Assembly: GCA_007695035.1 (NCBI GenBank)
Contig: REEO01000068.1
Location: 1 to 64,000, forward strand
Direction of reading: 5' to 3'
Origin: Saprospirales bacterium
Lineage (GTDB): Bacteria; Bacteroidota; Bacteroidia; Chitinophagales; Saprospiraceae
DNA: 64,000 nt
Positions 41,117 to 64,000 of the stretch are shown one piece after another (position 1 is the first letter of the stretch; the number at the start of each line of letters is the position of its first letter). The notes below the pieces were generated by a model. The model saw only the letters and a program-made list of their open reading frames with translations. It was not told the DNA's origin and searched no databases. A program made the translations under genes and the position numbers.

Positions 41117-42769
41117 ATGAAAATCAACCGCATACCCCTGCTTTTTGTCATCATTTTTCTACTCTCCGCCTTTAAAATGACAGGCCAGGGAAAGCATCTA
41201 TTCCAAAATGTGCCGGTTGTCCCCGATGAGTATATCGTCCAGCTTAAAGAAGGGACAGCGCCTTCCGATTGGATTGATCAACTGACTGATTTTGCCCGGG
41301 AAGTGCAGGTTGAACACATTCGGCCTCTGGCAAGGACATTAAACACCCACCTTTTTAGAATGGAGACTACCGATCGCACACCTGCCCAAATGCGGGAGTT
41401 CATGTTGAATCAGCAATCTGTTCGCGACATTTTTCCCAACAGAATAGGAGCATGGCGAACCGGTGAACCCGACGACCCCCTTTTCCCCGACCAGTGGAAC
41501 CTTTTTCAAATACAGGCACCTCAGGCATGGGAAATAGCGCGCGGAGGAACCACGGCACTCGGTGACACTATTGTAATTGCAATTATGGACAGCGGATGTC
41601 AGATCGATCATCCCGACCTTTTCGACAACATATGGGTAAACCGCGGCGAAATACCCGGCAGTGGTATGGATGAGGACGGGAATGGCTACGTGGATGACTA
41701 CTACGGCCTGAATGTCACCACCGGAGACGACCAACACAGCGTCAATCGCCACGGAACAGAAGTCATTGGAGTTGCAGCTGCAGTTACAAACAACTCCGAG
41801 GGACTCAGCAGTATAAACTGGAATGTACAGGTCATGGTACTGTCGAAGAGCAATGGCGGGCCCACGGAGGCAGACATGGTGGAGGCCTACCACTATGCAA
41901 TAGATCAGCGCAGGAGGTACAATGAGAGCGGAGGTCAAGAGGGTGCTTTTGTAGTAGCGACCAATTTTTCCGGCGGAATCGCCAATGAGGACCCCGAGAA
42001 TTTCCCCATGTGGTGTGAGATGTACGATTTGATGGGTGAGGTGGGAATACTTTCTACTGCGGCCACAGTAAATTCCAATACCGATGTGGATGTTTTTGGA
42101 GATATACCCACGACCTGTCCCAGCCCTTTTCTGATCTCAGTAACCAACTCAAACATGGACGATGAAAAAATACTGAGTGCGGGTTACGGAGTGAAAAACA
42201 TTGAACTGGCAGCGCCCGGACGCAATATTCCAACCACGACCATCGACAGCGATTACCGGGGGAACCTAAGCGGCACTTCTCTGGCAGCACCGCAAGTGAC
42301 GGCAGCCATTGCACTACTCTACTCTGCAGATTGCATAGCCTTCGCCCAACTCGCACGCGACAATCCCAGTGAGGCCGCACTTGTAGCCAGAAGGGCTATA
42401 CTGGACGGAGTAGATCGAAATTCCAATCTCGAGCAATATACCATTTCAGGAGGCAGGTTAAATGTGTACAACAGTCTTTTTGAGTTGAGTGATTGTCAAT
42501 TTGAAGTGGGACCACTTTCCATTTCAAATCTATACCCCAATCCCACAACCGGAGAGCTGAACATCGACATCCTAGCCCCAGATTTTGAACCCTATGAAAT
42601 CCAGATTACCGATATGCTCGGGCGTGAAGTATTGCGATTTCCGGTGGATTATGAAGCTTTTTCACCCAACGTGAAGCAGATCAATGTCGAGCAGCTTCAA
42701 TCCGGTGCCTATCTCATTCACATAGTCGGTGCCCGAAAAAAGGAGACGCATACTTTTATAAAGCACTGA
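41117..42769 (+). CDS. Subtilisin-like (S8) serine protease with T9SS sorting domain
   Basis: The 550-residue secreted protease has a signal peptide (4-22, RIPLLFVIIFLLSAFKMTGQ) and an I9-like propeptide (about 30-110, VPDEYIVQLKEGTAPSDWID). The catalytic domain has Asp158 (IAIMDSGCQIDHPDL), His212 (NRHGTEVIGVAAAV) and Ser388 (GTSLAAPQVTAAIALL). All three catalytic residues are present. The last 80 residues are a type A T9SS domain (ISNLYPNPTTGELNIDI, then ITDMLGREVLRF and GAYLIHIVG). It is predicted to be a surface or extracellular protease. The substrate is unknown. Confidence 0.94.
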   Translation: MKINRIPLLFVIIFLLSAFKMTGQGKHLFQNVPVVPDEYIVQLKEGTAPSDWIDQLTDFAREVQVEHIRPLARTLNTHLFRMETTDRTPAQMREFMLNQQSVRDIFPNRIGAWRTGEPDDPLFPDQWNLFQIQAPQAWEIARGGTTALGDTIVIAIMDSGCQIDHPDLFDNIWVNRGEIPGSGMDEDGNGYVDDYYGLNVTTGDDQHSVNRHGTEVIGVAAAVTNNSEGLSSINWNVQVMVLSKSNGGPTEADMVEAYHYAIDQRRRYNESGGQEGAFVVATNFSGGIANEDPENFPMWCEMYDLMGEVGILSTAATVNSNTDVDVFGDIPTTCPSPFLISVTNSNMDDEKILSAGYGVKNIELAAPGRNIPTTTIDSDYRGNLSGTSLAAPQVTAAIALLYSADCIAFAQLARDNPSEAALVARRAILDGVDRNSNLEQYTISGGRLNVYNSLFELSDCQFEVGPLSISNLYPNPTTGELNIDILAPDFEPYEIQITDMLGREVLRFPVDYEAFSPNVKQINVEQLQSGAYLIHIVGARKKETHTFIKH

Positions 42770-49678: not shown

Positions 49679-52600
49679 TTATTCAATCAACATCATTTTC
49701 TTAGTTGCATTGTTGCTACCTGCTTCGAGTTGGTAGTAGTAAACACCACTCGCGGGAAGGTCATTTCTATCGAGCTGTACTTCATTATAACCGCGTACAA
49801 ACTCATCTTGAATAACTTTCACAACCTTGCCGGTTACATCGTAAATGGTGATGCTACCGGAAACTTCCTCAGGAAGTACGAAGCCAATAACGGTAGATTG
49901 CCCGAATGGGTTCGGAGTATTTTGATAAAGTGCAAATACATCCGAATCAACGGTTCCAGTCACATCTTCAACCTGCAGGTTAACAATTACAGGTCCGTCA
50001 CCACTGCGGTATGCTTCAGAAGCAGTAACTGCAGAAGTTATAGAGAACAACTGATCTGTACTACCATCTGCTTTTGCAACAAATTGCAGTGTAAACAGTA
50101 CATCATCCTCCGACCTGGTGACATGCTCAGAAGCATTCCAGGAAGTAGTGATCATTCCATCATCCAACAAGTGGAATCCGAAGTTAGCTTCACTTAAGTC
50201 GTTGAGACTACCTTCCTTGAAACCATCAAAATCTATCATGTTCTGGTTGAAGTTCAGAGTAAACTGGTAACCAAGAACCTGGTTAAATTCGGATGCTCTG
50301 AAATCAACTTCTACAAACTCACCGGCTTCGAAATCGAAACGATCAACAATGATATTCACAGGATTAGCAATGCTACGGCTTTGAGCACCAATCAATGAAT
50401 TGGGCTGGTTACTGTTGTCCACATCACCAATTTTCACACCGAAGAAGTCGGCATTTCTAACAGTAGCTTGCAAATCTTCGTATGATCTTACAGTCTCAAT
50501 TTCTGCAGGGTTAGGAGGTTGCACCATACCCTGGTCGAAAATTTGATCAGAGGAAACAAACCTCCAGCTGGTATTATTTGGGAACTCGTTCACTCTACCC
50601 AAAATCAAAGATCGTAGGTCAGCGATATCGAGAACGTTAATTACACCATCAGGACGCACGTCTGCAGCAATCAATTTATAAGGGCTGTCGAGATACTGGA
50701 TGCCAAGAATATGTCTCTGAATCAACGCAATGTCAAAGGTAGTAACACCATTTAATGGATTGATATCCTTAAATGGAGTTAATACATAATCATTGTTCAG
50801 GGCAATTCCGGCATTGAAGGTAAATCCACCATCGTTACCGGTCACTATAGAGCTGAACGGATCATCATTGCGTGTCAACTCAACAGTACCATCTTCGATT
50901 GCTTCCATATCTTCAGTTTGCAGTGTACCCGCAATAGAAATATCGTTACAAATTTCATTTGGATCCTGTATCAATATGAAAGTCTCACAGAAATCCTGAT
51001 TGCCTGCCTCGTCAGTAACCCATAGTTCAATTCTGTTTGATCCAAGAGCATCACAGCAGAAGGTAATAGTAGTACTATCGATATCTTCACTGAAAGAGAA
51101 GATCAGATCAGTAGAATCTGTACAGTTATCGAAGCTACCAGCATCATAGGTTTCAGCACTCAAAGTAATACAACCACTACTTGGCATTATAACAGTAGCA
51201 ATTCCGTGGAAACAAACCGGTGTAGGCGGTTTAGCATCTACAATTTCAAAGATTTGCTCACATACAGTGGTGTTACCACAAGGATCCGTGACTGTCCAGA
51301 CTATTCTGTGTTCACCTACAGGATAAACACTTGATGCATTGTCTCCGGTGCCTGAAAAGTCGAAAGTGCCATTATTAAAGGCATCGATTTGCCATGAAAT
51401 GGTTAACGCATCCTCAAGCACATCCTCGTCAATACAAGCATGGTCAAGTTCGATAATCAATTCTATATCCTTCTCACAAGTGTTGTCAGTAACTTCGAAA
51501 ACAAGGTCTTCACAATTGACAACAATAGGCGCATCAGCATTCATGATCTTAATTTCCTGTACATGCGTCCAGGGGCTCTGAATTGTAGCCGGCTGGCACC
51601 AATCGATTACCTGCCAGGTTCTCAGAATCTTCATACATGCATTTCCTGCTTGTGGTCCGGTAAATATTGCATCTGTGTATGACGTGAGAATATCGGCACA
51701 TCCAAGATTAGGTCCTTGAATTTGAGGTTCACCCACTTGATCAGGATCCACTCCGTTACCTTCAAAACATTCACTCAATGTAACATTTCCTGGCCACACG
51801 ATTTCCCATTGACTTGGAGGCAGACCGGAAAACTGATCTATACCAGAGAATGGGCTGGTATTCACAACTTTGATCTGTTGTACACAGTCAAGAGTTACGT
51901 TACCGAAAGCGTCAGTTGCTCTCCAACCTCTAACAATAGCAAGATCATCATCCATTTCAAAACCCTGCCGTTGTTGCGGAGTGGTTTGGCCAAACACAAT
52001 TCTCTCTTGCGTAGGCGTTACCTGAACTCCAGTTCCAAGGTTACCGCATTCCTCAATAACTCCTATAAAGATTTCCTGATCGATTTCCATTCCATTGGGA
52101 CAGTTATCAATGGCTATACCATCAATAATAGTTACTTCAGGAAGTGCATCGGCAGGAAGAGCAGCAGGATCAACAACTCTGGTAACTCGCTCTTCACCAC
52201 GTTGAATGGCGACGATTCCACCAAACAACTCATCAAGCGAGGCTTGAGAAAGGTCAGAATTGGGATCATTAAAGTCAAAATCACCAAAATCAAACAGGCA
52301 GTTAACAGTAACATTAAGGTCAGATGGGCAGGTAATTGAAGGAGCGACATTGTCTTCAACAAAAACCGTCACACTACATATGTTGGTATTACCGCTAAGG
52401 TCAGTTACCTGAACATAAATATCAACTTCACCGTCACGAGCTTCAATGTCCTCGCAGCAGAAATCCATGAATTCCTGCCATTCAGTTCGACTGTTGTCAC
52501 ACTGACTATTTTTAGCAAAGTTATTATCGTCTCTGGATCTTCTAACCAAAATTGATTCAACTCCGCAGTTATCCCAGGAGCCATCATCGAATGCATCAAC

Positions 52601-55600
52601 AAAAACCCGTGCAAAGCCTTGCGTACCACCTCCAAGTGATACTCTGGTATCTAGATCACAGATTGCTACGGGAGCAACATCGTCAATAACAGAAACTCCT
52701 GTTACACACTCAGCGGTATTACCGCAACCATCATCCACCACATAAGTAACTGTGTGGTCACCAAAAGGCAGGTCGCTAACTATCCAATTACCGTTGATCT
52801 CCTCTACATTGCCAGCACTGGCGGTTACTGTGTAAGTAACATTATCGGAACAAATATCTGAAGGCAATTCATCAATTTGTCCTTGTGCAAACAATGTCTC
52901 AAGAGTGGCATCCCAGCTGCCTTCACAGCTATTAAAAGAAGTACTAACTTGCACGTTAGCAGGACATTCAACCACTGGAGGTGCACTATTATCAATAAGA
53001 ATCAACTGAGTAAATTGTGTTGTTTCATTGGTACAATCATCCAGTACATACCATGTACGCAATAATTTTTCCAATCCACAATCTCCAACGTCGAAGGTCA
53101 AATCTTCATAAGTGAAGTAAATATTATCGCAGACACTTTCAAAGCCACCTGTTACAGAAGGATGTGGGTTGCCGTTATCATCAGTAGCCCAGTTACCACC
53201 ACAAGGTAAGCCCGGGTTGGTAATTCCATCATAATTTTCAGGAGCCTCGAGTTCGTCGAGAGTAATTCTGCGAATATTAATGGTTTGCTCACAAGAAGAG
53301 GTGTTGCCACTTTGGTCTTCAACTGTCCACGTTCTATTGATTATTCTCTCCAATTCGGAATCACAATCCGTAAATATTTCCAGATCATCAGCGAATGTCA
53401 AATCAATATCACCACAGTTATCAAATGGCAGGATTTCCGGAGCATCTATATTAAGGATTAGTTCAACTTCAGATATTGTACCACCTGCAGCAGTAAATGC
53501 AGATATAAAAGTAGTTTCGAAACGAACAGTCCAGACACCTTGCGCATTCTCACCAGCGAAGTTAAAGAACACAGGACCAGCACCGGCTGCAATGGTTCCG
53601 TTTATTGGTTGAACAGGAGTTCCATCAGACAGCGTATTGAACTGATCATATGTGGTCACTACTTCTCCTTCATCATCAAAAGTAATATCTAAGGGGAAAG
53701 TACCCGCATTAAAGGTAGTGGCATTGTAAATGGTCTCCTCAGTACCATCAGGACTTTCCAGGAAGATGCTGTTGTCGTGTGGGCGCAAAATCTCTCCATC
53801 CACACGCAGACGAACATTACTTACTGTGAAGTCTGCACCAAGAGCTGAGAAATCAAATTCATACTCCAGGTCAATTGCCGGAGCACCTGATGCGACATTA
53901 CCAAATTCGTCGTTCAGACCGGTCAAGGCGATTGAGAATTCCTCACCATCGAAAGCAGGAGCAGGGGCTTCCGGGAAAATATCACCACAAAGGAGATTTA
54001 GATCTCGACACTCAATAACGGGATCAATTTTATCCTCGATAAGCAAATTACCCCAGCAGCTGTTTCCAGTCACAGGATCAACCACCGTTACTGTCAAAAC
54101 AGAATCTAAGACCTCAGCACCAAAAGGAGCTTCAACAATGTCGCCATCGCTGGTTTCAAAAATCAGTTCATAATCGTCATAACAGCGATATGGTCCACCT
54201 TCCAGAATCATGTCAGCATTGATATCTGCAATACAGTTTTCATCTACTGAAACATTAACCATGTCATTACACGCCAGTGAAGTGACAGGGTTGGGGAATT
54301 CATTAACGATCACCTCAAAACCACAGGTAGATACATTTCCTTCACAATCGGTAGCTTCGAATTCAACGAAATGAGTTCCAATCTCAATAAATGTCCCACT
54401 CACGGGACCAGCTGTTTGAACGAGATCAATCTCATCGCAAACACCTGCACCAACAGAATAGAAAACAGTACCATTCCAAATACGAGAAGCAAAAACAGTT
54501 CCTGTGAAAGCACCAGCAGCTCTACCAATACCAGCTTCTATTTCGATATTGCCGTCGTTCTCGACCACATTACCGTCGGTGTAGATAGCACGCGGTCCGC
54601 CACCTGCATAGTTAGCCACATCCATATAAATTCCAAAGCTCTCACCCGGTTCAATAATCAATCCACCAAAAGGAAAGAGAGTCGGAACATTGGTACCATT
54701 GTAGGGTACCGTTTCAGAGGCAAACAAAGTCCACACACTTGGATCGGTCTCATTACCGACATAGGTGCCGGGCGTAGCATAAAAGTCAATATCAGCGGCA
54801 GTACCGGGGGCATTTCCAATGTGAATCAGGAAGGAATCAAGTCTGATAGTCTCAGTTGAAACATTGGTAATATCAAACATATTTCCGGCGAATCCATTAC
54901 CACCGGCAAATGTGGTGGTAATATCATCCATAAATCCGGCACCCGGAGTAGCAGCTGCAAGGCAGTTATCACTCACATCAGGAATAAAGTCCAGGTTCAC
55001 TCCACATTCACCACCACCGAGGGTTACACTAACTTCATTTGGACAGTTAAATACAGGAGGCTCATTGTCTTCCACTACAACAGTAAACACACAATCAGCT
55101 ACATCCGGATCGTCAATGCTAAAAGTAACGGTTGTAGAACCCAATGGATAAACCCCGCTGGCATCTTCGCCACCATTAAATGAGTTGGTAATATCACCGG
55201 ATTCTTCACAGAAACCGGTAGTTTCAACTTCCAGTCCACCAACAAAGGCTTCGCATATACCAGGATCGGTATCTACTACGACATTATCGGGGCAGATAAG
55301 TACACATGGAGGCAATTCTACTACATTCAGTGTAGTGACACAAGTAGAAGAATTTCCGCTGTCATCAGTAACCGTAAGTATAATATCAAGATCACCAACA
55401 TCTTGCGGAATAATAAGTGTTTGAGAAATCTCTAAACTGATGTCACCGCAGTTGTCAAAACTTCCAGCATCAATATCATCTACGTCAAGGGCAAATTCAA
55501 AATTATTCGAAGGCATCAGCTCGACATCAAATCCGTCCACACAAAGTGCGGTAGGAGCCATATTATCTTCTACAGTGATAGTAACTTCACAAGTGGCAGT

Positions 55601-58600
55601 ATTGCCATTTACATCGGTTACAGTACCCACAAAAGTGTTTTCTCCAATATCATCACAAGTGAGGACAACGAATTGAGGTTCAACTGAAGCAATTCCACAA
55701 TTGTCAAATGAACCATCATCAACATCTTCGGCAGTTACAACAACTTCACCATCCTCGTCTAATTCAGCAACAATATCCTGACAGAGAACAGTTGGAGGAA
55801 TATTATCCTGAACATTTGCAGTAACCTGGCAGGAAGAAACATTGCCATTAACGTCGGTGGCTTCCACTTCTATAGTAACAGCTCCCACATCACCACAACC
55901 AAACTCGATTGGCTCAGCAGTTACCTCGTCAATATCACAATTATCCTCTACAGAAAGAATGATGTCATCAGGATCTACAGAAGCTTCACCATTCTCATCG
56001 AGGAAGACATCAATTTCTGCTACACACTCCAATACCGGAGCTATATCATCTATTACAGTGAGGTGGAAATCACAAGTACTTTCATTGCCATTGCTATCGA
56101 TTGCAGTGACAAACAAGTCGTGTTCACCTACTAAATCACAATCGTACTGATCGACATTAGCAAACAATTCTTCGATTCCACATGCATCCGAAGCTTCAAT
56201 CACCACATCATCGAGATCCAAAGCGGCAAATCCGGTAGAATCCAAACCGATGGTCAAAGAATCGATACAAGTCAATTCGGGGGCAATGTCATCAATTACA
56301 GTAAGGTGGAAATCACAAGTACTTTCATTCCCATTGCTATCGATAGCGGTAACGAAAAGATCGTGTTCACCTACGAGGCTGCAATCGTATTGATCCACAT
56401 TGGCAAACAATTGCTCGATACCGCAGGCATCAGAAACTTCTGTAACCACATCATCGAGATCCAAAGCGGCCAAACCCGTCACATCCAATGCGATTTGAAG
56501 TGAATCTACACATTCCAATACAGGAGGAATGTTATCGATAACCTCAAGGTGGAAATCACACGTGGTTTCATTTCCAGATGGATCAACTGCTGTGATGGTA
56601 AGGTCATGCGAACCAACAAGGCTGCAATCGTATTCAGAGACATTAGCGAAAGTATCAACCACTTCGCAATTGTCAGTTACACTAATAATTACATCATCCA
56701 GGTCAAGAGCGGCAAAACCGTCTTCATCCAGGAATATCTCCAATGAATCAACACAGCTAAGTTCAGGAGCCATGTCATCGACAACAGTGAGGTGGAAGTC
56801 GCAAGTACTTTCATTGCCATTGCTATCGATAGCGGTAACGAAAAGATCGTGTTCACCTACGAGGCTGCAATCGTATTGATCCACATTGGCAAACAATTGC
56901 TCGATACCGCAGGCATCAGAAACTTCTGTAACCACATCATCGAGATCCAAAGCGGCCAAACCCGTCACATCCAATGCGATTTGAAGTGAATCTACACATT
57001 CCAATACAGGAGGAATGTTATCGATAACCTCAAGGTGGAAATCACACGTGGTTTCATTTCCAGATGGATCAACTGCTGTGATGGTAAGGTCATGCGAACC
57101 AACAAGGCTGCAATCGTATTCAGAGACATTAGCGAAAGTATCAACCACTTCGCAATTGTCCGAAACCTCAACAATCACCTGATCCAGGTCAAGGACAGCC
57201 TCGCCATCAGCGTCGAGGAATACCTGTGTGGAATCCACACAATCAAGGATTGGAGCGGAATTATCCTCAACAGTTACTGTGGCCTCACAAGTAGCCACAT
57301 TTCCGCTGGGGTCAGTAACTGTAAGAGTCACCGTATTGTCTCCCGTATGGTCACAACCAAAAGAATCATTATCTATTTCCAAAGAGATCTCCCCACAATT
57401 GTCAGAAGAACCACCATCCACATCATCTGCAACAATGGTAGCTTCACCATTGGCATCCAAATCAACTGTAATATCCTGACAAACAGCTATAGGATCAACC
57501 TCATCGATTATTTCCACATCTCCGGCATTGATCACATAATCAATTTGATTGGTTAGAGGGTCAATACTAGAGAATTCAATATCTAAAGGATCATTAATTA
57601 TATCAACAACCGTTTCATCTCCAAGGTCACCGACTGCCAGGAATGTTAAGGTAATAATTACATCTCCATTGTCTAAGGTTACATCTTCATCACCAACCCA
57701 TGAAACAAGCAACAAGCCATCATTAGTTAGTGAATCATTTATTTCGAATGAGCCGTTGTTGGAAGGGAAAAAGGCCTCAATATCGACATAATCGATTACC
57801 TCTTCATCCCAGGATACGGTAAACTGAACACCTCCGAGGCCAATAAAGTCTTCGACTGTCAAGTCAATGGTAAACTCTTCACCACAACTTGGAGTAGCAG
57901 AACCGACATTTACAGTAACCTCTTCAGTTAACAGGGGCAATACCAGGGCTGAAAAGGAACACTCAGCGGAATTACCAGCACCGTCTTCCACCGTGTAGGT
58001 GACTACACTGGTTCCAAGGTTAAACTCAGTACCACTGGCGTCTCCAGATCCCGATACATCGGTATCACCGGTAATTGCATATTCTACAGAAACAACTTCA
58101 CAATTGTCATCCGCATCGGCATCAATATCGTTAATGGCCACTGATGGATCTCCCAAGACATCGACAAAGACGGTTAGGTCATCAGGGCATACAACAGTAG
58201 GCGCTTCATTGTCTTCATAGGTTACAGAACCGTCAATTACATCGTGTGGCACGGGGCCATTAAGATTTGAAAATTCAATTGCAACAGGATCATCAGTAAT
58301 TTCCACATCGCTAGTTACACCACTGGCGGATAAAATATTAAATGTAATTTCCAATATTGCAGTGCCGTTGGCCAGGGATATTTCCGATCCATTGACCCAT
58401 GAAGTAGCTAATTTTCCATCATTTACGAAATTATCATTAATATCACTGGTACCTGCGGGAAGGGTAACTTCCGCATCGACGTATTCCAGAGAGTTTTCAT
58501 CCCAGTTTACAGAATACTGCACACCGGAAACATCATCAAAGTTCTGAACTCTAACAGAAACAACAACCTGGTCGAGATTGCAATCAAACTCATAATTTTC

Positions 58601-60781
58601 AATATAGGCGACCAAATCATCACCCGGTGCAGCTTCCTCAACCGTCACCTGAAAGGAGCACTCAGCAGTGTTGTCATTTACATCAGTAGCCAAATAGCTC
58701 ACAGTTGTAACGCCCACATTAAAGGACTCACCGCTCGCATCATCAGAACCGCTTCCTGAAGTAGCACCTGAAAGCGTGTAATCAACACTTGCTATACCAC
58801 AATCATCAGACAATTCAGTTGGTTCGATGTCATCTACATCAGCAGAACCCGAAGCGAATGGGACTGTAACAGTTACATCATCCGGACATTCTACCACAGG
58901 ATCTTCATTATCTGTGATATCCACTGTACCGTTCTGTGAAGTAACAGGCATAGGACCGTCGAGGTCAGATACCTCAATTGCATTAGGGGTATTGCTGAAA
59001 ACAACATCAGAGATTCCCTCTTCACCAAATACCTCCAGGGTAAAACTAAATACAACAGTTCCATTGGGTAAACTCTCTTCAGTTCCCGAAACCCAACTCA
59101 CGGTAATGAAATCATCGCCGTCGTTAAAGTTTGAGGTACCACCCGGGAAATTCAATGACCCTGATACAAAGGAGAAGTTCTCATCGTCAAAATTGATACT
59201 AAATTGAGTTCCTAATACATCATTGAAGTTATAAACCTCTACATCAAGAGTAACGGTATTGCCACAATCAGCAGCACCAGAGGTTAAAACCAGATGAACA
59301 GTATCACTTACTGGAACAGCCTGATTGACCGTTACAGTGAAACTACATTCAGCAGTGTTGCCGGCAAAATCAGCAATGGTATAAGTGACGGTAGAAACAC
59401 CGACATTAAATTCTGTGCCGCTGGCATCATTGGATCCGGTACCGGAAGAGGCACCCGAAATAGTATAATCGAGGTAATCCACTCCGCAATTATCACCTGA
59501 ATCAGCAGGTTCTATATCATCTACTTGAGCAGAAGTAGCTCCTTGATCAGCATCAACAACTACATTGTCGGGACAGTCCACAAAAGGGTCTATTTCATCG
59601 ACAATTTCCAGATTGCCATCATTGGTAACCACATCGACATCTTCGCCATCCGTATCTTCAGCTTCAATAGCATTGACACTTCCGGTAAAGGAAATAGCAT
59701 AATTCCCCACATTAGAAGAGGCGCTAAAGTCAATGGTAGCGATAACAAATCCGTCGGCTTCATTGTAACCATCTGTGCTACTGAAACTGAATCCCAATGA
59801 ACCGTTGGCAGCATCGGAATCATCGACAGTTACATTATCACCTAAAAATTCAGTATAACCATCGAATGTAAATTCATTCGCGTCAAACTCTATAGTAAAG
59901 GTAAGCAGTCCAATGTCATCTATTCCATCGGCAGCAATATTTACAGATCCGCTGTTGTTACAGTCAATATCAGAATCAACTACATTAAGTTCCACAACAG
60001 TGGCAGGATCAGGATCATCCTCTGTAATAGTAATCTCAAAGGAGCATGAGGCCGAATTACCGTCAAAATCTACTACAGTATATTCAACAACAGTGGTTCC
60101 AAGATTAAAAAAAGTACCACTAGCATCATTGTCTCCTGAACCCCCAGTGGCACCAGATAATGCGTAAGTCACTTCATCAATGCCACAGTTATCGGAAGCG
60201 TCAGGATCAATATTTTCAACAGTATCTCCTGTTTCACCAGCATCAACTGTTAAGTTTACATCATCCGGACAGGTGATTTCGGGATCTACATCGTCAAAAA
60301 TGGCAATAGATCCATCAATTGGTACATTGGGTACCCCCTGGGGACTGCCATTTATTTCCTGGATAACTTCTATTGCAGTGGGGGATCCAGAAAATTCAAT
60401 ATCATGAACTGCAACAACGGAGGGGTTATGAACAATAAAATCCAGTTCCATCACCACATCTCCATCATCAAAATTTAGACCAACAGGTACGAACCAACTA
60501 AAAGTAACCCAACCATCAGCATTGTTGATGTTTGGAGTAAAAAGACCTCCTGGGAAGAAGTCCCTCAACTCGTCCACTTCTAATTCATCGGGGTCGAAAA
60601 CAATTGAGCCTTGCATCCCACTAATTGAATCAAAGTGTTCAACGGCAACTTCTACTGTAAGGATTTCATCGTCTTCACAAGACATTTGTTCATCAGATAA
60701 TGCAAAGGTAGGATCCTGAGCATAAACGAAACTTGAGAAGGCGAAACAAAGAAATCCGACAAGTGTAATAATTTGTTTCAT
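49679..60781 (-). CDS. Giant secreted HYR/cohesin/dockerin-like surface protein with T9SS sorting domain
   Basis: The 3700-residue protein starts at ATG 60781 (MKQIITLVGFLCFAFSSFVY, signal peptide); a 13-codon longer frame exists but hides the signal. Order, approximate residues: five cohesin-like sandwiches (20-160, 260-400, 490-625, 717-855, 949-1085), alternating with HYR domains; nine tandem HYR-like repeats of about 81 residues (1092-1820); an interrupted HYR with a non-repetitive insert (1850-2110); a P-domain-like region (2280-2450, FLESPDGTEETIYN); further HYR domains; a CarboxypepD_reg-like strand region and dockerin-like segment (3290-3430, GVTTFDIALIQRHILG and DVRPDGVINVLDIADLRSLI); a sixth cohesin-like domain (3470-3605); a type A T9SS tail (YQNTPNPFGQSTVIGF). 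Predicted to be an extracellular adhesin or matrix protein. It contains a 344-base perfect internal repeat. Domain names rest on pattern, not a search. Confidence 0.88.
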   Translation of the reverse strand: MKQIITLVGFLCFAFSSFVYAQDPTFALSDEQMSCEDDEILTVEVAVEHFDSISGMQGSIVFDPDELEVDELRDFFPGGLFTPNINNADGWVTFSWFVPVGLNFDDGDVVMELDFIVHNPSVVAVHDIEFSGSPTAIEVIQEINGSPQGVPNVPIDGSIAIFDDVDPEITCPDDVNLTVDAGETGDTVENIDPDASDNCGIDEVTYALSGATGGSGDNDASGTFFNLGTTVVEYTVVDFDGNSASCSFEITITEDDPDPATVVELNVVDSDIDCNNSGSVNIAADGIDDIGLLTFTIEFDANEFTFDGYTEFLGDNVTVDDSDAANGSLGFSFSSTDGYNEADGFVIATIDFSASSNVGNYAISFTGSVNAIEAEDTDGEDVDVVTNDGNLEIVDEIDPFVDCPDNVVVDADQGATSAQVDDIEPADSGDNCGVDYLDYTISGASSGTGSNDASGTEFNVGVSTVTYTIADFAGNTAECSFTVTVNQAVPVSDTVHLVLTSGAADCGNTVTLDVEVYNFNDVLGTQFSINFDDENFSFVSGSLNFPGGTSNFNDGDDFITVSWVSGTEESLPNGTVVFSFTLEVFGEEGISDVVFSNTPNAIEVSDLDGPMPVTSQNGTVDITDNEDPVVECPDDVTVTVPFASGSADVDDIEPTELSDDCGIASVDYTLSGATSGSGSDDASGESFNVGVTTVSYLATDVNDNTAECSFQVTVEEAAPGDDLVAYIENYEFDCNLDQVVVSVRVQNFDDVSGVQYSVNWDENSLEYVDAEVTLPAGTSDINDNFVNDGKLATSWVNGSEISLANGTAILEITFNILSASGVTSDVEITDDPVAIEFSNLNGPVPHDVIDGSVTYEDNEAPTVVCPDDLTVFVDVLGDPSVAINDIDADADDNCEVVSVEYAITGDTDVSGSGDASGTEFNLGTSVVTYTVEDGAGNSAECSFSALVLPLLTEEVTVNVGSATPSCGEEFTIDLTVEDFIGLGGVQFTVSWDEEVIDYVDIEAFFPSNNGSFEINDSLTNDGLLLVSWVGDEDVTLDNGDVIITLTFLAVGDLGDETVVDIINDPLDIEFSSIDPLTNQIDYVINAGDVEIIDEVDPIAVCQDITVDLDANGEATIVADDVDGGSSDNCGEISLEIDNDSFGCDHTGDNTVTLTVTDPSGNVATCEATVTVEDNSAPILDCVDSTQVFLDADGEAVLDLDQVIVEVSDNCEVVDTFANVSEYDCSLVGSHDLTITAVDPSGNETTCDFHLEVIDNIPPVLECVDSLQIALDVTGLAALDLDDVVTEVSDACGIEQLFANVDQYDCSLVGEHDLFVTAIDSNGNESTCDFHLTVVDDMAPELSCVDSLEIFLDEDGFAALDLDDVIISVTDNCEVVDTFANVSEYDCSLVGSHDLTITAVDPSGNETTCDFHLEVIDNIPPVLECVDSLQIALDVTGLAALDLDDVVTEVSDACGIEQLFANVDQYDCSLVGEHDLFVTAIDSNGNESTCDFHLTVIDDIAPELTCIDSLTIGLDSTGFAALDLDDVVIEASDACGIEELFANVDQYDCDLVGEHDLFVTAIDSNGNESTCDFHLTVIDDIAPVLECVAEIDVFLDENGEASVDPDDIILSVEDNCDIDEVTAEPIEFGCGDVGAVTIEVEATDVNGNVSSCQVTANVQDNIPPTVLCQDIVAELDEDGEVVVTAEDVDDGSFDNCGIASVEPQFVVLTCDDIGENTFVGTVTDVNGNTATCEVTITVEDNMAPTALCVDGFDVELMPSNNFEFALDVDDIDAGSFDNCGDISLEISQTLIIPQDVGDLDIILTVTDDSGNSSTCVTTLNVVELPPCVLICPDNVVVDTDPGICEAFVGGLEVETTGFCEESGDITNSFNGGEDASGVYPLGSTTVTFSIDDPDVADCVFTVVVEDNEPPVFNCPNEVSVTLGGGECGVNLDFIPDVSDNCLAAATPGAGFMDDITTTFAGGNGFAGNMFDITNVSTETIRLDSFLIHIGNAPGTAADIDFYATPGTYVGNETDPSVWTLFASETVPYNGTNVPTLFPFGGLIIEPGESFGIYMDVANYAGGGPRAIYTDGNVVENDGNIEIEAGIGRAAGAFTGTVFASRIWNGTVFYSVGAGVCDEIDLVQTAGPVSGTFIEIGTHFVEFEATDCEGNVSTCGFEVIVNEFPNPVTSLACNDMVNVSVDENCIADINADMILEGGPYRCYDDYELIFETSDGDIVEAPFGAEVLDSVLTVTVVDPVTGNSCWGNLLIEDKIDPVIECRDLNLLCGDIFPEAPAPAFDGEEFSIALTGLNDEFGNVASGAPAIDLEYEFDFSALGADFTVSNVRLRVDGEILRPHDNSIFLESPDGTEETIYNATTFNAGTFPLDITFDDEGEVVTTYDQFNTLSDGTPVQPINGTIAAGAGPVFFNFAGENAQGVWTVRFETTFISAFTAAGGTISEVELILNIDAPEILPFDNCGDIDLTFADDLEIFTDCDSELERIINRTWTVEDQSGNTSSCEQTINIRRITLDELEAPENYDGITNPGLPCGGNWATDDNGNPHPSVTGGFESVCDNIYFTYEDLTFDVGDCGLEKLLRTWYVLDDCTNETTQFTQLILIDNSAPPVVECPANVQVSTSFNSCEGSWDATLETLFAQGQIDELPSDICSDNVTYTVTASAGNVEEINGNWIVSDLPFGDHTVTYVVDDGCGNTAECVTGVSVIDDVAPVAICDLDTRVSLGGGTQGFARVFVDAFDDGSWDNCGVESILVRRSRDDNNFAKNSQCDNSRTEWQEFMDFCCEDIEARDGEVDIYVQVTDLSGNTNICSVTVFVEDNVAPSITCPSDLNVTVNCLFDFGDFDFNDPNSDLSQASLDELFGGIVAIQRGEERVTRVVDPAALPADALPEVTIIDGIAIDNCPNGMEIDQEIFIGVIEECGNLGTGVQVTPTQERIVFGQTTPQQRQGFEMDDDLAIVRGWRATDAFGNVTLDCVQQIKVVNTSPFSGIDQFSGLPPSQWEIVWPGNVTLSECFEGNGVDPDQVGEPQIQGPNLGCADILTSYTDAIFTGPQAGNACMKILRTWQVIDWCQPATIQSPWTHVQEIKIMNADAPIVVNCEDLVFEVTDNTCEKDIELIIELDHACIDEDVLEDALTISWQIDAFNNGTFDFSGTGDNASSVYPVGEHRIVWTVTDPCGNTTVCEQIFEIVDAKPPTPVCFHGIATVIMPSSGCITLSAETYDAGSFDNCTDSTDLIFSFSEDIDSTTITFCCDALGSNRIELWVTDEAGNQDFCETFILIQDPNEICNDISIAGTLQTEDMEAIEDGTVELTRNDDPFSSIVTGNDGGFTFNAGIALNNDYVLTPFKDINPLNGVTTFDIALIQRHILGIQYLDSPYKLIAADVRPDGVINVLDIADLRSLILGRVNEFPNNTSWRFVSSDQIFDQGMVQPPNPAEIETVRSYEDLQATVRNADFFGVKIGDVDNSNQPNSLIGAQSRSIANPVNIIVDRFDFEAGEFVEVDFRASEFNQVLGYQFTLNFNQNMIDFDGFKEGSLNDLSEANFGFHLLDDGMITTSWNASEHVTRSEDDVLFTLQFVAKADGSTDQLFSITSAVTASEAYRSGDGPVIVNLQVEDVTGTVDSDVFALYQNTPNPFGQSTVIGFVLPEEVSGSITIYDVTGKVVKVIQDEFVRGYNEVQLDRNDLPASGVYYYQLEAGSNNATKKMMLIE
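56331..56674 (-). repeat. 344-base perfect direct repeat, copy A
   Basis: Every base from 56331 to 56674 is identical to 56817-57160, an offset of 486 bases. That equals two 81-codon HYR-like units. Identity stops with a single mismatch on the left (56330) and diverges on the right after 56674. Because third-codon positions are also identical, duplication or gene conversion must be recent. It lies in the tandem HYR region of the giant protein (about residues 1369-1484). Confidence 0.97.
56817..57160 (-). repeat. 344-base perfect direct repeat, copy B
   Basis: The partner of 56331-56674, covering about residues 1207-1322 of the giant protein. The segments encode SEYDCSLVGSHDLTITAVDP, PPVLECVDSLQIALDVTGLA and DQYDCSLVGEHDLFVTAIDS in both copies. 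Neighbouring HYR units are similar in protein sequence but differ at many silent sites. Confidence 0.97.
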
Positions 60782-60973
60782 GAGTTTGGTTTTTATAATT
60801 TGTTGTTTGGTAATTATCAACTACTTGGGTTTCTGAGAATATGGATTGGTTAGACCCACATTCTATATTTTTTTACGTCTTTTTATCAATTAATCTGACC
60901 TTGGGTCCATAACTACAATAAAAATGCCAAAAATTTTGAGGCATCTATTATTCCAGCAAAATATTTAAAAAAT

Positions 60974-61006
60974 CCGGAGCACCGATGAGAACCATCGATG
61001 CTCCGG
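60974..61006 (-). terminator. Intrinsic terminator of the second HYR/cohesin gene
   Basis: CCGGAGCA-CCGATG (60974-60987) pairs with CATCGA-TGCTCCGG (60993-61006) with one internal mismatch. Read on the reverse strand it is followed by a run of T (TTTTTT). It lies just after the stop at 61016 and separates the two giant genes, so each has its own transcript end. The remaining 60782-60973 stretch presumably holds the promoter of the 3700-residue protein, but no exact TAnnTTTG match was seen there. Confidence 0.85.
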
Positions 61007-61015
61007 AAACTGAAA

Positions 61016-64000
61016 TTAATCTACAAGTATCATACTCTTAACAGCTGAGTGATCAGCAGTTGTCAGTCTATAGAAGTAAACTCCACTTCCATTCAAATCA
61101 GAAACATCAACGCGTACTTCATTGTAGCCGCCATCAAAATCTCTGTTCATTGAACGGATAAGTTTACCGGTCTCGTCAATAATCTCTATGGTAGCATTTG
61201 AAGCTTTTGGAAGTTCAAAACCAATAACCGTAGTTCCGGAGAATGGGTTTGGTACGTTTTGATACAGTACAAACTCTTCACCTTCCATACCCGTGGTAAT
61301 AAACTCAATATCTACTCCAAATACATCGTCCTGAGCATTGTATGCTTCGGCACTTAGTCCGGTATTGCTCACATTGATATGCTCACTGATTGCATCAATA
61401 TCACTTGTAGCTCTAAAGGTAAGGTTAAATACCTCAGTTCCTTCAGCAAGTGAGTTGGTCTTAGCATTGTACCAGTTCAGGTTCAAGCTACCATTTTCAA
61501 TTGCATTTACATTAGCGTCAGACAAGTTGTCCACATTACCAGGATTTTCAAACCCTACGAATTCAAGATTCAAGGCATCATAATCCAGTGTAAACTGGTA
61601 ACCAGTCATATCAACAAAGTTATTGGCATTGAAAGAAACTTCAACCAGGTCCCCAGTTCTGTAGGATTTGTCATCCACGAGGAAGTTAAACACTCCTCTG
61701 GTTTGGGCACCACTGAATCCAATTGACTCATTTACATCTCCAATTTTGACAGCAACAAAGTCATTCCCGAGATCATCAGCAGTCAAATCATTGATGCTGA
61801 TAGACTCAGGCCATGTATCTGCAAATGGATTAGCAGGATCAGTGAACGTAAAGTCAGCATCAATAAATCTCCAACTGGTGTTGTTAGGATACTCATTGAT
61901 ATTTCCAATGATCAAAGCCTGAAGAATAACAAGGTCAAATGTGGAAAGAATTCCATCATTACTCACATCTGCAGCAATCAACTTGTATGGAGAATCAAGA
62001 GACTCAATCAACAACAAGTGACGCTGAATAAGAATCAAATCCATGGTTGTGACACCCTGAGAATGGTTGTCATTCTCGTATGGAGTTAATGTTACATCAG
62101 AACCAAGAAGTACTGAGATGTCAAAAAATCCGTCCACATCTGTAGCTACTGAGGTGGTCACATCACCTGTTACATTCACAGTAACATCCTCAATACCCAC
62201 ACCATATTCTGTTTCAATCAATCCTGCTATATCCGCTGTAGCGGCAGGAGCAGTTATGCTAACAGTTCCACTAAAGATCGATACAGGCACAACCTGAAGT
62301 CCTTGAGTAACCTCTATAGAAACAGGCGTGTCAGTAATTATCGCACCAGTAACATCGTCAACATCACCTACCAATTCTACTTCAATACAGAAAATCTCAG
62401 ATCCATCTGCCAAAGTAACAGCGTTATTGAGTGACTCAAACCAGCTAACGGTAATAGTATTACCTATGATGTTATCCTCCACATTTGTCAAACCGCTTTC
62501 TTGAATTCCAAGTACAGTAGCCACAGCGGAATCAAATTCAACACTGAACTGAACACCAGTGATGTCGGTGAAATTTTCAACAGTGATTGGTACACAAACC
62601 ACGTCACCAACTGAACCTTCCACATCTTCAGATATCAGAGCAATCTCTGGACATACACCAGTAGATGCAGACACTACGAGTGTGAATTCACAAGATTCAG
62701 AATTTCCGTTAACATCAGTAACAGTAAGTGTAACAGAGTTGTATCCGAGGTCTTCACAATCAAATTCTGACTGAGAAAGAACCATGTCATCAATTCCGCA
62801 GTTATCGCTAACTGAAGTTTCAAGAACATCTGCTGGTACAATTGATCCTTCACCCTGGTTATTCAGTACAAGGGTAAGCTCATCGTCACATACAAAAGTT
62901 GGGCTGATATTATCTTCCACTGTAACAACAGCATCGCAAGAAGACACATTGCCATTTTGATCTTCAACCGTGAGAACAACATCGTTGTCACCAACATCGC
63001 CACAGTCAAATTCATACTCATCCAGCGACAAGATAACAGGTCCACAATTGTCAAAACTACCATTATCAACAGCTTCGGGCGTGGTTGATGCATTTCCATC
63101 AGCGTCCAACTCAACGGTTATATCCTGGCAGATAGCAAGCGGATCGAGCATGTCACTAACAGATACGACTGATGTACACTCGTCTTCATTTCCATGAGGA
63201 TCGGTGACAGTCAAAGTTACAACCACATCACTACCAGCATCTGCACAAGTGAATGTTGAAGGATCAACAGACAATGTCAATATCTCATCTTCAGGATCAG
63301 AACTTCCATCGTCAATATCAGAAGCATCGATGGTTGCAAGACCGTCAGAATCTAGCTCAACACTGATCATGTCAACACATTCAGCAGTTGGTACTCCACT
63401 GAGTACTTCAACAGTAGCCTCACAAGTCGAGTAGTTGTTGAATTCATCAGTCACCAACAATACAACTGTTTGCGTACCAACATCATCGAGAGTAAACACA
63501 TTGTTCTGTGCCTCGAGCGTAATGTCGAAACATGGCTCAGAGTTGTCTGTACTTCCATCGTTAATCTGATCAGCAGTAACAGTAACAGCACCGTTGTTTA
63601 CATAAATTTCGATCACATCCTCCGTACAAACAGCTACAGGAGCGGTATTGTCCTGAATCGTGATTGTAGTCAGACAGCTTGCAGTATTCCACGCGGCATC
63701 CATGACATACAATTCGACATCATTGTCTCCAATGTGCTCACATCCAAAGGTGAACTCGGAAACAGGATTATCCGCCTCATTGATATCAAACAAGAAGGTC
63801 AATGGTTCTACAGGATCGCAACCAGTATCAAAAGAAGCCTGGTCAACTATCGTAGCTGGTAATGTCACAAAACCATCTGGTCCTAGAGCAACATTAACTT
63901 TATCAGTACAAGCTGCTACAGGAGGTATTGAATCTGTCACATTCACTGTGAAAGAGCAAACAGTTTGATTCCCATTCTCATCTTCAATGGTGTATGTAAT
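61016..64000 (-). CDS. Secreted HYR/cohesin/dockerin-like protein with T9SS sorting domain (5' end outside window)
   Basis: The reading frame is open to the right edge: upstream of a GTG at 63946 it still reads ITYTIEDENGNQTVCSFTVN, an HYR-domain end, so the true start is outside. The 994 visible residues contain about six HYR-like units (such as PLAICQDITVELDADGNAST), then a cohesin-like domain (PITVENFTDITGVQFSVEFD), a CarboxypepD_reg-like and dockerin-like segment (GVTTMDLILIQRHLLLIESL, then LDSPYKLIAADVSNDGILST), a second cohesin-like domain (FNANNFVDMTGYQFTLDYD), and a type A T9SS tail (YQNVPNPFSGTTVIGFELP). The final part has the same order as the neighbouring 3700-residue protein and shares whole phrases with it, so the two are paralogues. 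Confidence 0.88.
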   Translation of the reverse strand: MTYTIEDENGNQTVCSFTVNVTDSIPPVAACTDKVNVALGPDGFVTLPATIVDQASFDTGCDPVEPLTFLFDINEADNPVSEFTFGCEHIGDNDVELYVMDAAWNTASCLTTITIQDNTAPVAVCTEDVIEIYVNNGAVTVTADQINDGSTDNSEPCFDITLEAQNNVFTLDDVGTQTVVLLVTDEFNNYSTCEATVEVLSGVPTAECVDMISVELDSDGLATIDASDIDDGSSDPEDEILTLSVDPSTFTCADAGSDVVVTLTVTDPHGNEDECTSVVSVSDMLDPLAICQDITVELDADGNASTTPEAVDNGSFDNCGPVILSLDEYEFDCGDVGDNDVVLTVEDQNGNVSSCDAVVTVEDNISPTFVCDDELTLVLNNQGEGSIVPADVLETSVSDNCGIDDMVLSQSEFDCEDLGYNSVTLTVTDVNGNSESCEFTLVVSASTGVCPEIALISEDVEGSVGDVVCVPITVENFTDITGVQFSVEFDSAVATVLGIQESGLTNVEDNIIGNTITVSWFESLNNAVTLADGSEIFCIEVELVGDVDDVTGAIITDTPVSIEVTQGLQVVPVSIFSGTVSITAPAATADIAGLIETEYGVGIEDVTVNVTGDVTTSVATDVDGFFDISVLLGSDVTLTPYENDNHSQGVTTMDLILIQRHLLLIESLDSPYKLIAADVSNDGILSTFDLVILQALIIGNINEYPNNTSWRFIDADFTFTDPANPFADTWPESISINDLTADDLGNDFVAVKIGDVNESIGFSGAQTRGVFNFLVDDKSYRTGDLVEVSFNANNFVDMTGYQFTLDYDALNLEFVGFENPGNVDNLSDANVNAIENGSLNLNWYNAKTNSLAEGTEVFNLTFRATSDIDAISEHINVSNTGLSAEAYNAQDDVFGVDIEFITTGMEGEEFVLYQNVPNPFSGTTVIGFELPKASNATIEIIDETGKLIRSMNRDFDGGYNEVRVDVSDLNGSGVYFYRLTTADHSAVKSMILVD

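Follow-up and report, generated by a model that had tools for sequence, protein, structure and literature searches.

Two adjacent giant open reading frames (ORFs) on the reverse strand of the window, i.e. the whole analyzed stretch of 64,000 nucleotides from a Saprospirales bacterium, encode proteins which join cohesins, a dockerin, HYR repeats and a T9SS sorting tail in one chain. As had been described beforehand, hmmscan against Pfam listed neither a glycoside hydrolase nor a carbohydrate-binding family for these two proteins. On balance, we lean towards the reading that the pair belongs to a group of Saprospiraceae surface proteins, exported by T9SS and equipped with cohesins, dockerins or both, which would work as a non-cellulosomal counterpart of the cellulosome. 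According to our best reading, such a network would be assembled mostly between different proteins; self-assembly of the pair is possible, not favored.

Module order and module identity

The features of both ORFs are compiled in Table 1. Profile searches bore out the module counts of the preliminary description: each protein has a single dockerin, accompanied by six cohesins in the 3713-aa protein and by two in its neighbor. By eye, a signal-peptide-like start (MKQIITLVGF...) was located at an ATG 13 codons inside the 3713-aa ORF, at about 60781. This protein contains 14 HYR stretches, some of them between the N-terminal cohesins, and a linker with a GDVN-like motif leads from its dockerin to the sixth cohesin. 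On the whole contig the neighbor ORF can be followed over 2653 aa up to the contig end, where it remains open; its C-terminal order is cohesin, CnaB-like domain, dockerin, cohesin and tail. HYR exceeded its cut-off in both proteins (Pfam hmmscan), as did the T9SS tails (PF18962, 31.8 and 38.8 bits for a cut-off of 27; TIGR04183, 43.8 and 38.8 bits for a cut-off of 23). Matches to P_proprotein, D-lactate dehydrogenase and the LapB repeat (Pfam/NCBIfam) were far below their cut-offs and were set aside. Another ORF with a T9SS tail match is found at 41117-42769 of the window.

Table 1. Features of the two giant ORFs, given as positions in the window.
Feature	Position	Strand	Evidence
Giant protein, 3713 aa from TTG	49679..60820	-	ORF list
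3713-aa protein: cohesin 1 (aa 37-177), scaffold-like class	60290..60712	-	profile search, class comparison
3713-aa protein: cohesin 2 (aa 274-409), most divergent	59594..60001	-	profile search, class comparison
3713-aa protein: cohesin 3 (aa 506-638)	58907..59305	-	Pfam Cohesin, own profile
3713-aa protein: cohesin 4 (aa 735-871)	58208..58618	-	Pfam Cohesin, own profile
3713-aa protein: cohesin 5 (aa 966-1107), high-confidence model	57500..57925	-	Pfam Cohesin, own profile, model, fold match
3713-aa protein: long stalk of HYR and other Ig-like repeats	50936..57499	-	Pfam hmmscan
3713-aa protein: CnaB/carboxypeptidase-regulatory-like domain before dockerin	50783..50935	-	PF13620, E 2.5 only; clearer in relatives
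3713-aa protein: dockerin (aa 3347-3422)	50555..50782	-	Pfam Dockerin_1, own profile
3713-aa protein: anchor-proximal cohesin (aa 3486-3619)	49964..50365	-	Pfam Cohesin, own profile, class comparison
3713-aa protein: T9SS type A sorting tail	49685..49924	-	Pfam, NCBIfam, own profile
Neighbor: C-terminal 994 aa of ORF, open at window edge	61016..64000	-	ORF list
Neighbor: cohesin before dockerin	62249..62653	-	Pfam Cohesin, own profile
Neighbor: dockerin	61862..62092	-	Pfam Dockerin_1, own profile
Neighbor: anchor-proximal cohesin	61301..61696	-	Pfam Cohesin, own profile
Neighbor: T9SS type A sorting tail	61019..61261	-	Pfam, NCBIfam, own profile

A cohesin profile was built from the eight modules of the window and a dockerin profile from the dockerins of the genome. 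Since these profiles contain the modules themselves, they locate the modules rather than prove them. Pfam Cohesin (PF00963) matched seven of the eight modules when scanned singly (best E 3.6e-10). In a genome-wide search it gave 12 matches. Four of these fall in the 3713-aa ORF and two in the neighbor, each of the six exceeding the curated cut-off. Cohesin was absent from the hmmscan of the whole window proteins, even at E ≤ 10; hence, the signal is seen module by module. The eight-module profile retrieved solved cohesins from the PDB (best E 4.7e-9). Module 5, modeled solely from the window, L022 and L023 sequences, reached a pLDDT of 91.7 and a pTM of 0.85. In the leading rows of VIA-align, the model aligned to solved cohesins with Z up to 17.6 and an rmsd of about 2 Å over 126-140 residues, and titles naming a cohesin, scaffoldin or cellulosome occur throughout the best 50 matches listed. 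Among the solved cohesins is that of Archaeoglobus fulgidus (2xdh, Z 17.0). The cohesin calls, originally made from strand pattern, were upheld by the Pfam matches and by the fold of module 5.

Dockerin_1 (PF00404, cut-off 22.9 bits) scored 16.9 and 20.4 bits in the hmmscan of the whole proteins, i.e. below the cut-off, and 25.3 and 26.2 bits in the genome-wide search, i.e. above it; the isolated dockerin of the 3713-aa protein gave 25.9 bits. Among the 54 dockerins collected, 23 were scanned and all 23 matched. The dockerin profile found solved dockerin chains in the PDB (e.g. 4fl4_A, E 8e-10); one match was a clear outsider (a protein kinase, E 0.84), and a few others have names without "dockerin". 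The second calcium loop is mostly canonical across the 54 dockerins, with invariant aspartates at its positions 1 and 12 (54/54); by eye, the 3713-aa protein has R at position 3. By eye, the first loop follows a conserved, non-canonical pattern of its own across all 54, with the glycine one place late. The calcium loops, described earlier as partly degenerate, are therefore altered family-wide in the first loop and mostly canonical in the second. Judged by sequence, we regard the window modules as genuine dockerins. A model of the C-terminal dockerin-cohesin block was poor (mean pLDDT 47.7, pTM 0.32, pLDDT under 40 over the dockerin); Foldseek placed cohesin entries first for it, but antibodies and gp120 were also listed. 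The helix 1 sequence is common to the window dockerins and other dockerins, so that self-binding may be possible.

The host draft genome has a size of 3.35 Mb and its nearest named relatives are Saprospiraceae/Saprospirales MAGs. A contig search of genomes with one window protein as query yielded only two near relatives. In a genome of the same genus (G394), a 2998-aa frame contains cohesin, dockerin, cohesin and tail; about 220 bases behind it lies a frame of 3893 aa, in which five N-terminal cohesins precede the dockerin, cohesin and tail. Both genes, the gene order and the module order are thus kept at roughly 50-65% identity, which rules out an assembly artifact as origin of the pair. In the module-wise comparison, which covered cohesins, dockerins and tails, the dockerins were best conserved (83% and 90%), followed by the T9SS tails (79% and 83%) and the cohesins (46-66% in the 3713-aa protein, 70-71% in the neighbor). 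In the genome behind L022, three of the N-terminal cohesins are found in an ORF cut by the contig end.

Dockerin repertoire and cohesin classes

In the stretches of the host genome searched with the own dockerin profile, 22 dockerin ORFs were found; a T9SS type A tail was matched in 18 of them, and a cohesin behind the dockerin in 14. The C-terminal block is thus common in this genome. Its order in many of these proteins is CnaB-like domain, dockerin, short GDVN-bearing linker, anchor-proximal cohesin and tail. Over all regions collected, 39 of the 54 dockerin ORFs have a recognized cohesin following the dockerin. Cohesins placed ahead of the dockerin are uncommon (3/22 in the host genome, 4/54 overall). 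Pfam added two further dockerin ORFs, one on C75 and a 2292-aa ORF on C20. No glycoside hydrolase was listed for the 21 scanned of these 24 dockerin ORFs, the neighbor being scanned in part. The combination which defines a cellulosome, i.e. glycoside hydrolases with dockerins plus a carbohydrate-binding scaffold, was accordingly not found in the window proteins and those 21 ORFs.

Some single ORFs were recorded in addition. The 2292-aa ORF (L019:7648-14523) combines SprB repeats with a weak cohesin match and terminates in a dockerin-like segment; a tail was not listed for it. It is followed on the same strand by a gene with the dockerin-cohesin-tail block at its end. A reprolysin-like metallopeptidase with dockerin and T9SS tail is encoded at L086:9625-13728 (C103 of the host), and a 2500-aa ORF with an N-terminal cohesin, without dockerin or type A tail match, at L092 (C93:103491-110990 of the host). 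In two other genomes, open frames with a dockerin match extend over 13315 and 9227 aa (matches at G062 C1:1518288-1518434 and G085 C15:159998-160150, respectively).

Cohesin classes were compared by nearest neighbors among 281 cohesins, and a tree was computed for 132 of these (133 columns), including 70 of the 219 scaffold cohesins. Cohesin matches of < 96 model positions, the duplicate ORFs L018 and L147 and partial copies of the window ORFs were left out of both. Post-dockerin cohesins had their nearest neighbor in their own class in 26 of 33 cases and in single-cohesin-plus-tail proteins in 6 of 33. Pre-dockerin cohesins, the N-terminal ones of the window included, were nearest to scaffold cohesins (6/8) or to each other (2/8), which rules out an origin of the N-terminal cohesins as copies of the C-terminal one. 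For the single-cohesin-plus-tail proteins, the assignment is less clear (own class 15/21, scaffold 5, post-dockerin 1). On the tree, which is weak in detail (of the 129 inner branches, 12 are starred and 64 open; window cohesin 2 takes part in one long-branch pair), the post-dockerin class required 3 changes vs. 29.5 in shuffles, and the division into anchor-proximal and distal cohesins 4 changes.

Multi-cohesin loci and a dockerin protease in Saprospiraceae

A cohesin is present in 93 of 100 sampled Saprospiraceae genomes. According to Pfam match coordinates in ten genomes, a gene set with three members recurs, namely a dockerin-HYR gene, a gene encoding three or four cohesins, and PorP/SprF. 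In the copy of the host genome (C101), SprB repeats, CHU_C and Cohesin are over their cut-offs, PorP_SprF reaches 160 bits and the dockerin, with 19.0 bits, stays under the cut-off of 22.9. A scaffold profile was built from ten multi-cohesin proteins. It matched 90 of the 100 Saprospiraceae genomes at 1e-20; phylum-wide, six of 296 genomes were matched, five of them Saprospiraceae, so that the profile is almost restricted to Saprospiraceae.

The best match of each of the first 40 non-seed genomes, ordered by E-value, was taken as scaffold locus. PorP/SprF follows directly downstream in 30 of the 31 loci whose downstream flank measures at least 700 bp. A dockerin ORF lies within 4 kb in 16/40 loci, on the same strand in all 16, a count to be read with the selection of the seeds in mind, as at least seven of the ten had been chosen for a nearby dockerin and the profile leans to such loci. 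From 141 Pfam dockerins in 42.4 Mb, a rough estimate of about 1 in 80 was obtained for meeting a dockerin by chance, on the same strand and at most 4 kb from an arbitrary position. Many of the 24 loci without a dockerin within 4 kb have short flanks; among the ten loci with 4.5 kb on both sides, four are without one. Inside the scaffold ORF itself, no dockerin was found in any of the 40 loci, several of the ORFs being cut by contig ends. A single-cohesin-plus-tail ORF is close to the scaffold in 19/40 loci. Near one scaffold locus an asparaginase/glycosylasparaginase-like gene was seen (L095:1-834, Pfam Asparaginase_2), and by eye also at L096, L098, L099, L101 and L103.

Pfam dockerins amounted to 141 in ten scaffold-bearing genomes (5 to 26 each), which had been hand-picked and not drawn at random, vs. 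15 in ten genomes without scaffold match (0 to 6 each). The match to the Pfam model begins at position 1-4 for 14 of the 15 dockerins in genomes without scaffold. In scaffold genomes, a start at position 5 or lower was counted for no more than about 12 of the 141. Possibly, there are two dockerin types.

A 640-aa ORF of the host genome (C50) has a trypsin-like domain (26.8 bits, just under the cut-off of 27.6) and ends in a dockerin (36 bits), with the stop right after the GDVN-like motif; no cohesin or sorting tail is found behind the dockerin. Matches were obtained in 36 of 60 relatives and extend through the dockerin in 24, all of these among the 37 Saprospiraceae genomes. The nine ORF ends that were inspected stop in the same manner, without tail or cohesin. 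This protease might be a client of the cohesin scaffolds.

Possible modes of assembly and relation to known systems

A T9SS tail should fix the C-terminus of a protein to the cell. The 3713-aa protein would thereby be held C-terminally and carry its five scaffold-like cohesins at the far end of a long HYR stalk. Cohesin-array proteins of this kind would display docking sites, on which dockerin-bearing proteins (HYR adhesin-like proteins, proteases) would be held. The distal scaffold-like cohesins would be the receptors and dockerins of other exported proteins the ligands; for the five distal cohesins, the dockerin of the neighbor and those of other secreted proteins are likely candidates. While the identity and conservation of the modules, the gene linkage and the cohesin classes are shown, binding and the choice of partners are inferred; the complexes would presumably sit at the cell surface and could serve adhesion, matrix formation or protease retention. 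Assembly between different proteins is favored because none of the 40 scaffolds has a dockerin of its own and 16 have a dockerin gene nearby, and because a conserved protease has a dockerin without any cohesin.

A more far-reaching version, which we consider possible but distinctly tentative, takes all loci together as a family-wide, cellulase-free cellulosome analog on T9SS. An SprB-like, PorP/SprF-linked protein would present 3 to 10 cohesins, at which many dockerin-tagged proteins, including tail-less proteases, would be docked. If the scaffolds move like SprB, the cargo would be carried along the surface. The five-cohesin protein of the window would be a second, type A-anchored scaffold, which is itself dockable, so that a branching network could arise.

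Alternatively, dockerin and following cohesin could pack within one chain as a rigid stem, stiffened by calcium, beside the T9SS tail, the other cohesins being Ig-like spacers. The frequency of cohesin and tail behind the dockerin (39/54) agrees with such a stem, as does the separate class of post-dockerin cohesins (26/33; 3 vs. 29.5 changes). The protease family, however, keeps its dockerin without any cohesin behind it, and a stem would leave unexplained why dockerin genes lie close to separate genes with multiple cohesins. We therefore consider a stem of this kind unlikely. The same grouping of modules had led to the proposal of head-to-tail self-assembly of the 3713-aa protein, or of a copolymer of both neighbors, since each chain contains both interaction partners; the pair with the same layout is also kept in G394. 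This proposal appears quite improbable to us, as cohesins before the dockerin are rare (4/54), the C-terminus should be fixed to the cell by the tail, next to the dockerin, which is awkward for a free polymer, and elsewhere scaffolds and dockerin proteins are separate genes. The modules could also be vestigial, i.e. true folds which lost recognition and are used as generic adhesin building blocks. The first calcium loop, altered family-wide, and the 24/40 scaffold loci without a near dockerin gene would fit, whereas no other module compared is as well conserved as the dockerin, the two key aspartates of its second loop are invariant and dockerin number tracks scaffold presence (141 vs. 15); a loss of recognition is thus very unlikely. 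Finally, unrelated Ig-like and helical modules, neither cohesin nor dockerin, can be given next to no credence: the whole-protein hmmscan missed the cohesins and left the dockerins below cut-off, but the single-module Pfam matches and the PDB profile matches to cohesins and dockerins argue against them, and for module 5 they are refuted by its fold match to solved cohesins.

The favored reading, a set of exported cohesin and dockerin proteins assembling mostly with each other, has relatives among known systems. Cellulosomal scaffoldins with both cohesin and dockerin are already known; clostridial ones such as CipA contain several cohesins and a dockerin per chain, with an X-module before the dockerin. 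CipA-type scaffoldins come with a cellulose-binding module and cellulases, neither of which was detected in the window proteins. Non-cellulosomal cohesins and a dockerin are found in Archaeoglobus fulgidus, in small archaeal proteins without HYR or T9SS. SprB is a gliding adhesin with SprF in Flavobacterium johnsoniae. The Saprospiraceae multi-cohesin scaffolds resemble it in their SprB repeats, the CHU_C sorting domain and the PorP/SprF gene behind them, and differ from it by the cohesins in their N-terminal part. This likeness concerns the related scaffold loci, whereas the two window proteins carry type A tails.

The preliminary description had contrasted the window proteins with cellulosomes, in which the two modules would belong to separate partners. 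This contrast is too strong, since the available part of one report describes single proteins of ANME archaea in which a dockerin is combined with as many as five cohesins (PMC9012536); both modules in one chain are thus already known from there as well. According to the same part, archaeal cohesin-dockerin pairs bind specifically, which is a precedent for binding outside the cellulosome (PMC9012536). The ANME scaffoldin-like proteins share with the window proteins the dockerin and cohesins in one chain, and HYR is abundant in ANME, but as far as the available text goes they are archaeal, without T9SS, and linked to the S-layer instead of a sorting tail (PMC9012536, PMC5244752). A surface-attached cohesin scaffold has already been proposed for Cloacimonadota. 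The Candidatus Stygibacter complex, inferred from MAGs, likewise has a large non-catalytic cohesin scaffold with a C-terminal surface-attachment domain, and dockerin peptidases; it differs by CBM2/CBM3 on the scaffold and glycoside hydrolases among the dockerin enzymes, and the portion of the account at hand describes no SprB repeats, PorP/SprF neighbor or dockerin-plus-cohesin C-terminal block (PMC8542988). Cohesin-related genes of a MAG tabulated as Saprospiraceae are read as cellulosomal in the accessible part of another paper (PMC8547425). Bacteroidota terms were not found in PMC11557425. A literature search, with most subscription journals outside its reach, brought up no paper whose listing points to these Saprospiraceae scaffolds. 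As far as this search shows, the family-wide SprB-like scaffolds with PorP/SprF, the common dockerin-cohesin-tail block and the tail-less dockerin protease are new.

If the favored reading is true, cohesin-dockerin assembly would be routine surface building in Saprospiraceae, a family named in the literature excerpts available as abundant in wastewater systems, rather than a tool for plant fiber, and a protease without a sorting tail of its own would have a possible route to stay on the cell. Adjacent scaffold and dockerin genes and the dockerin-tipped protease provide ready candidate pairs.
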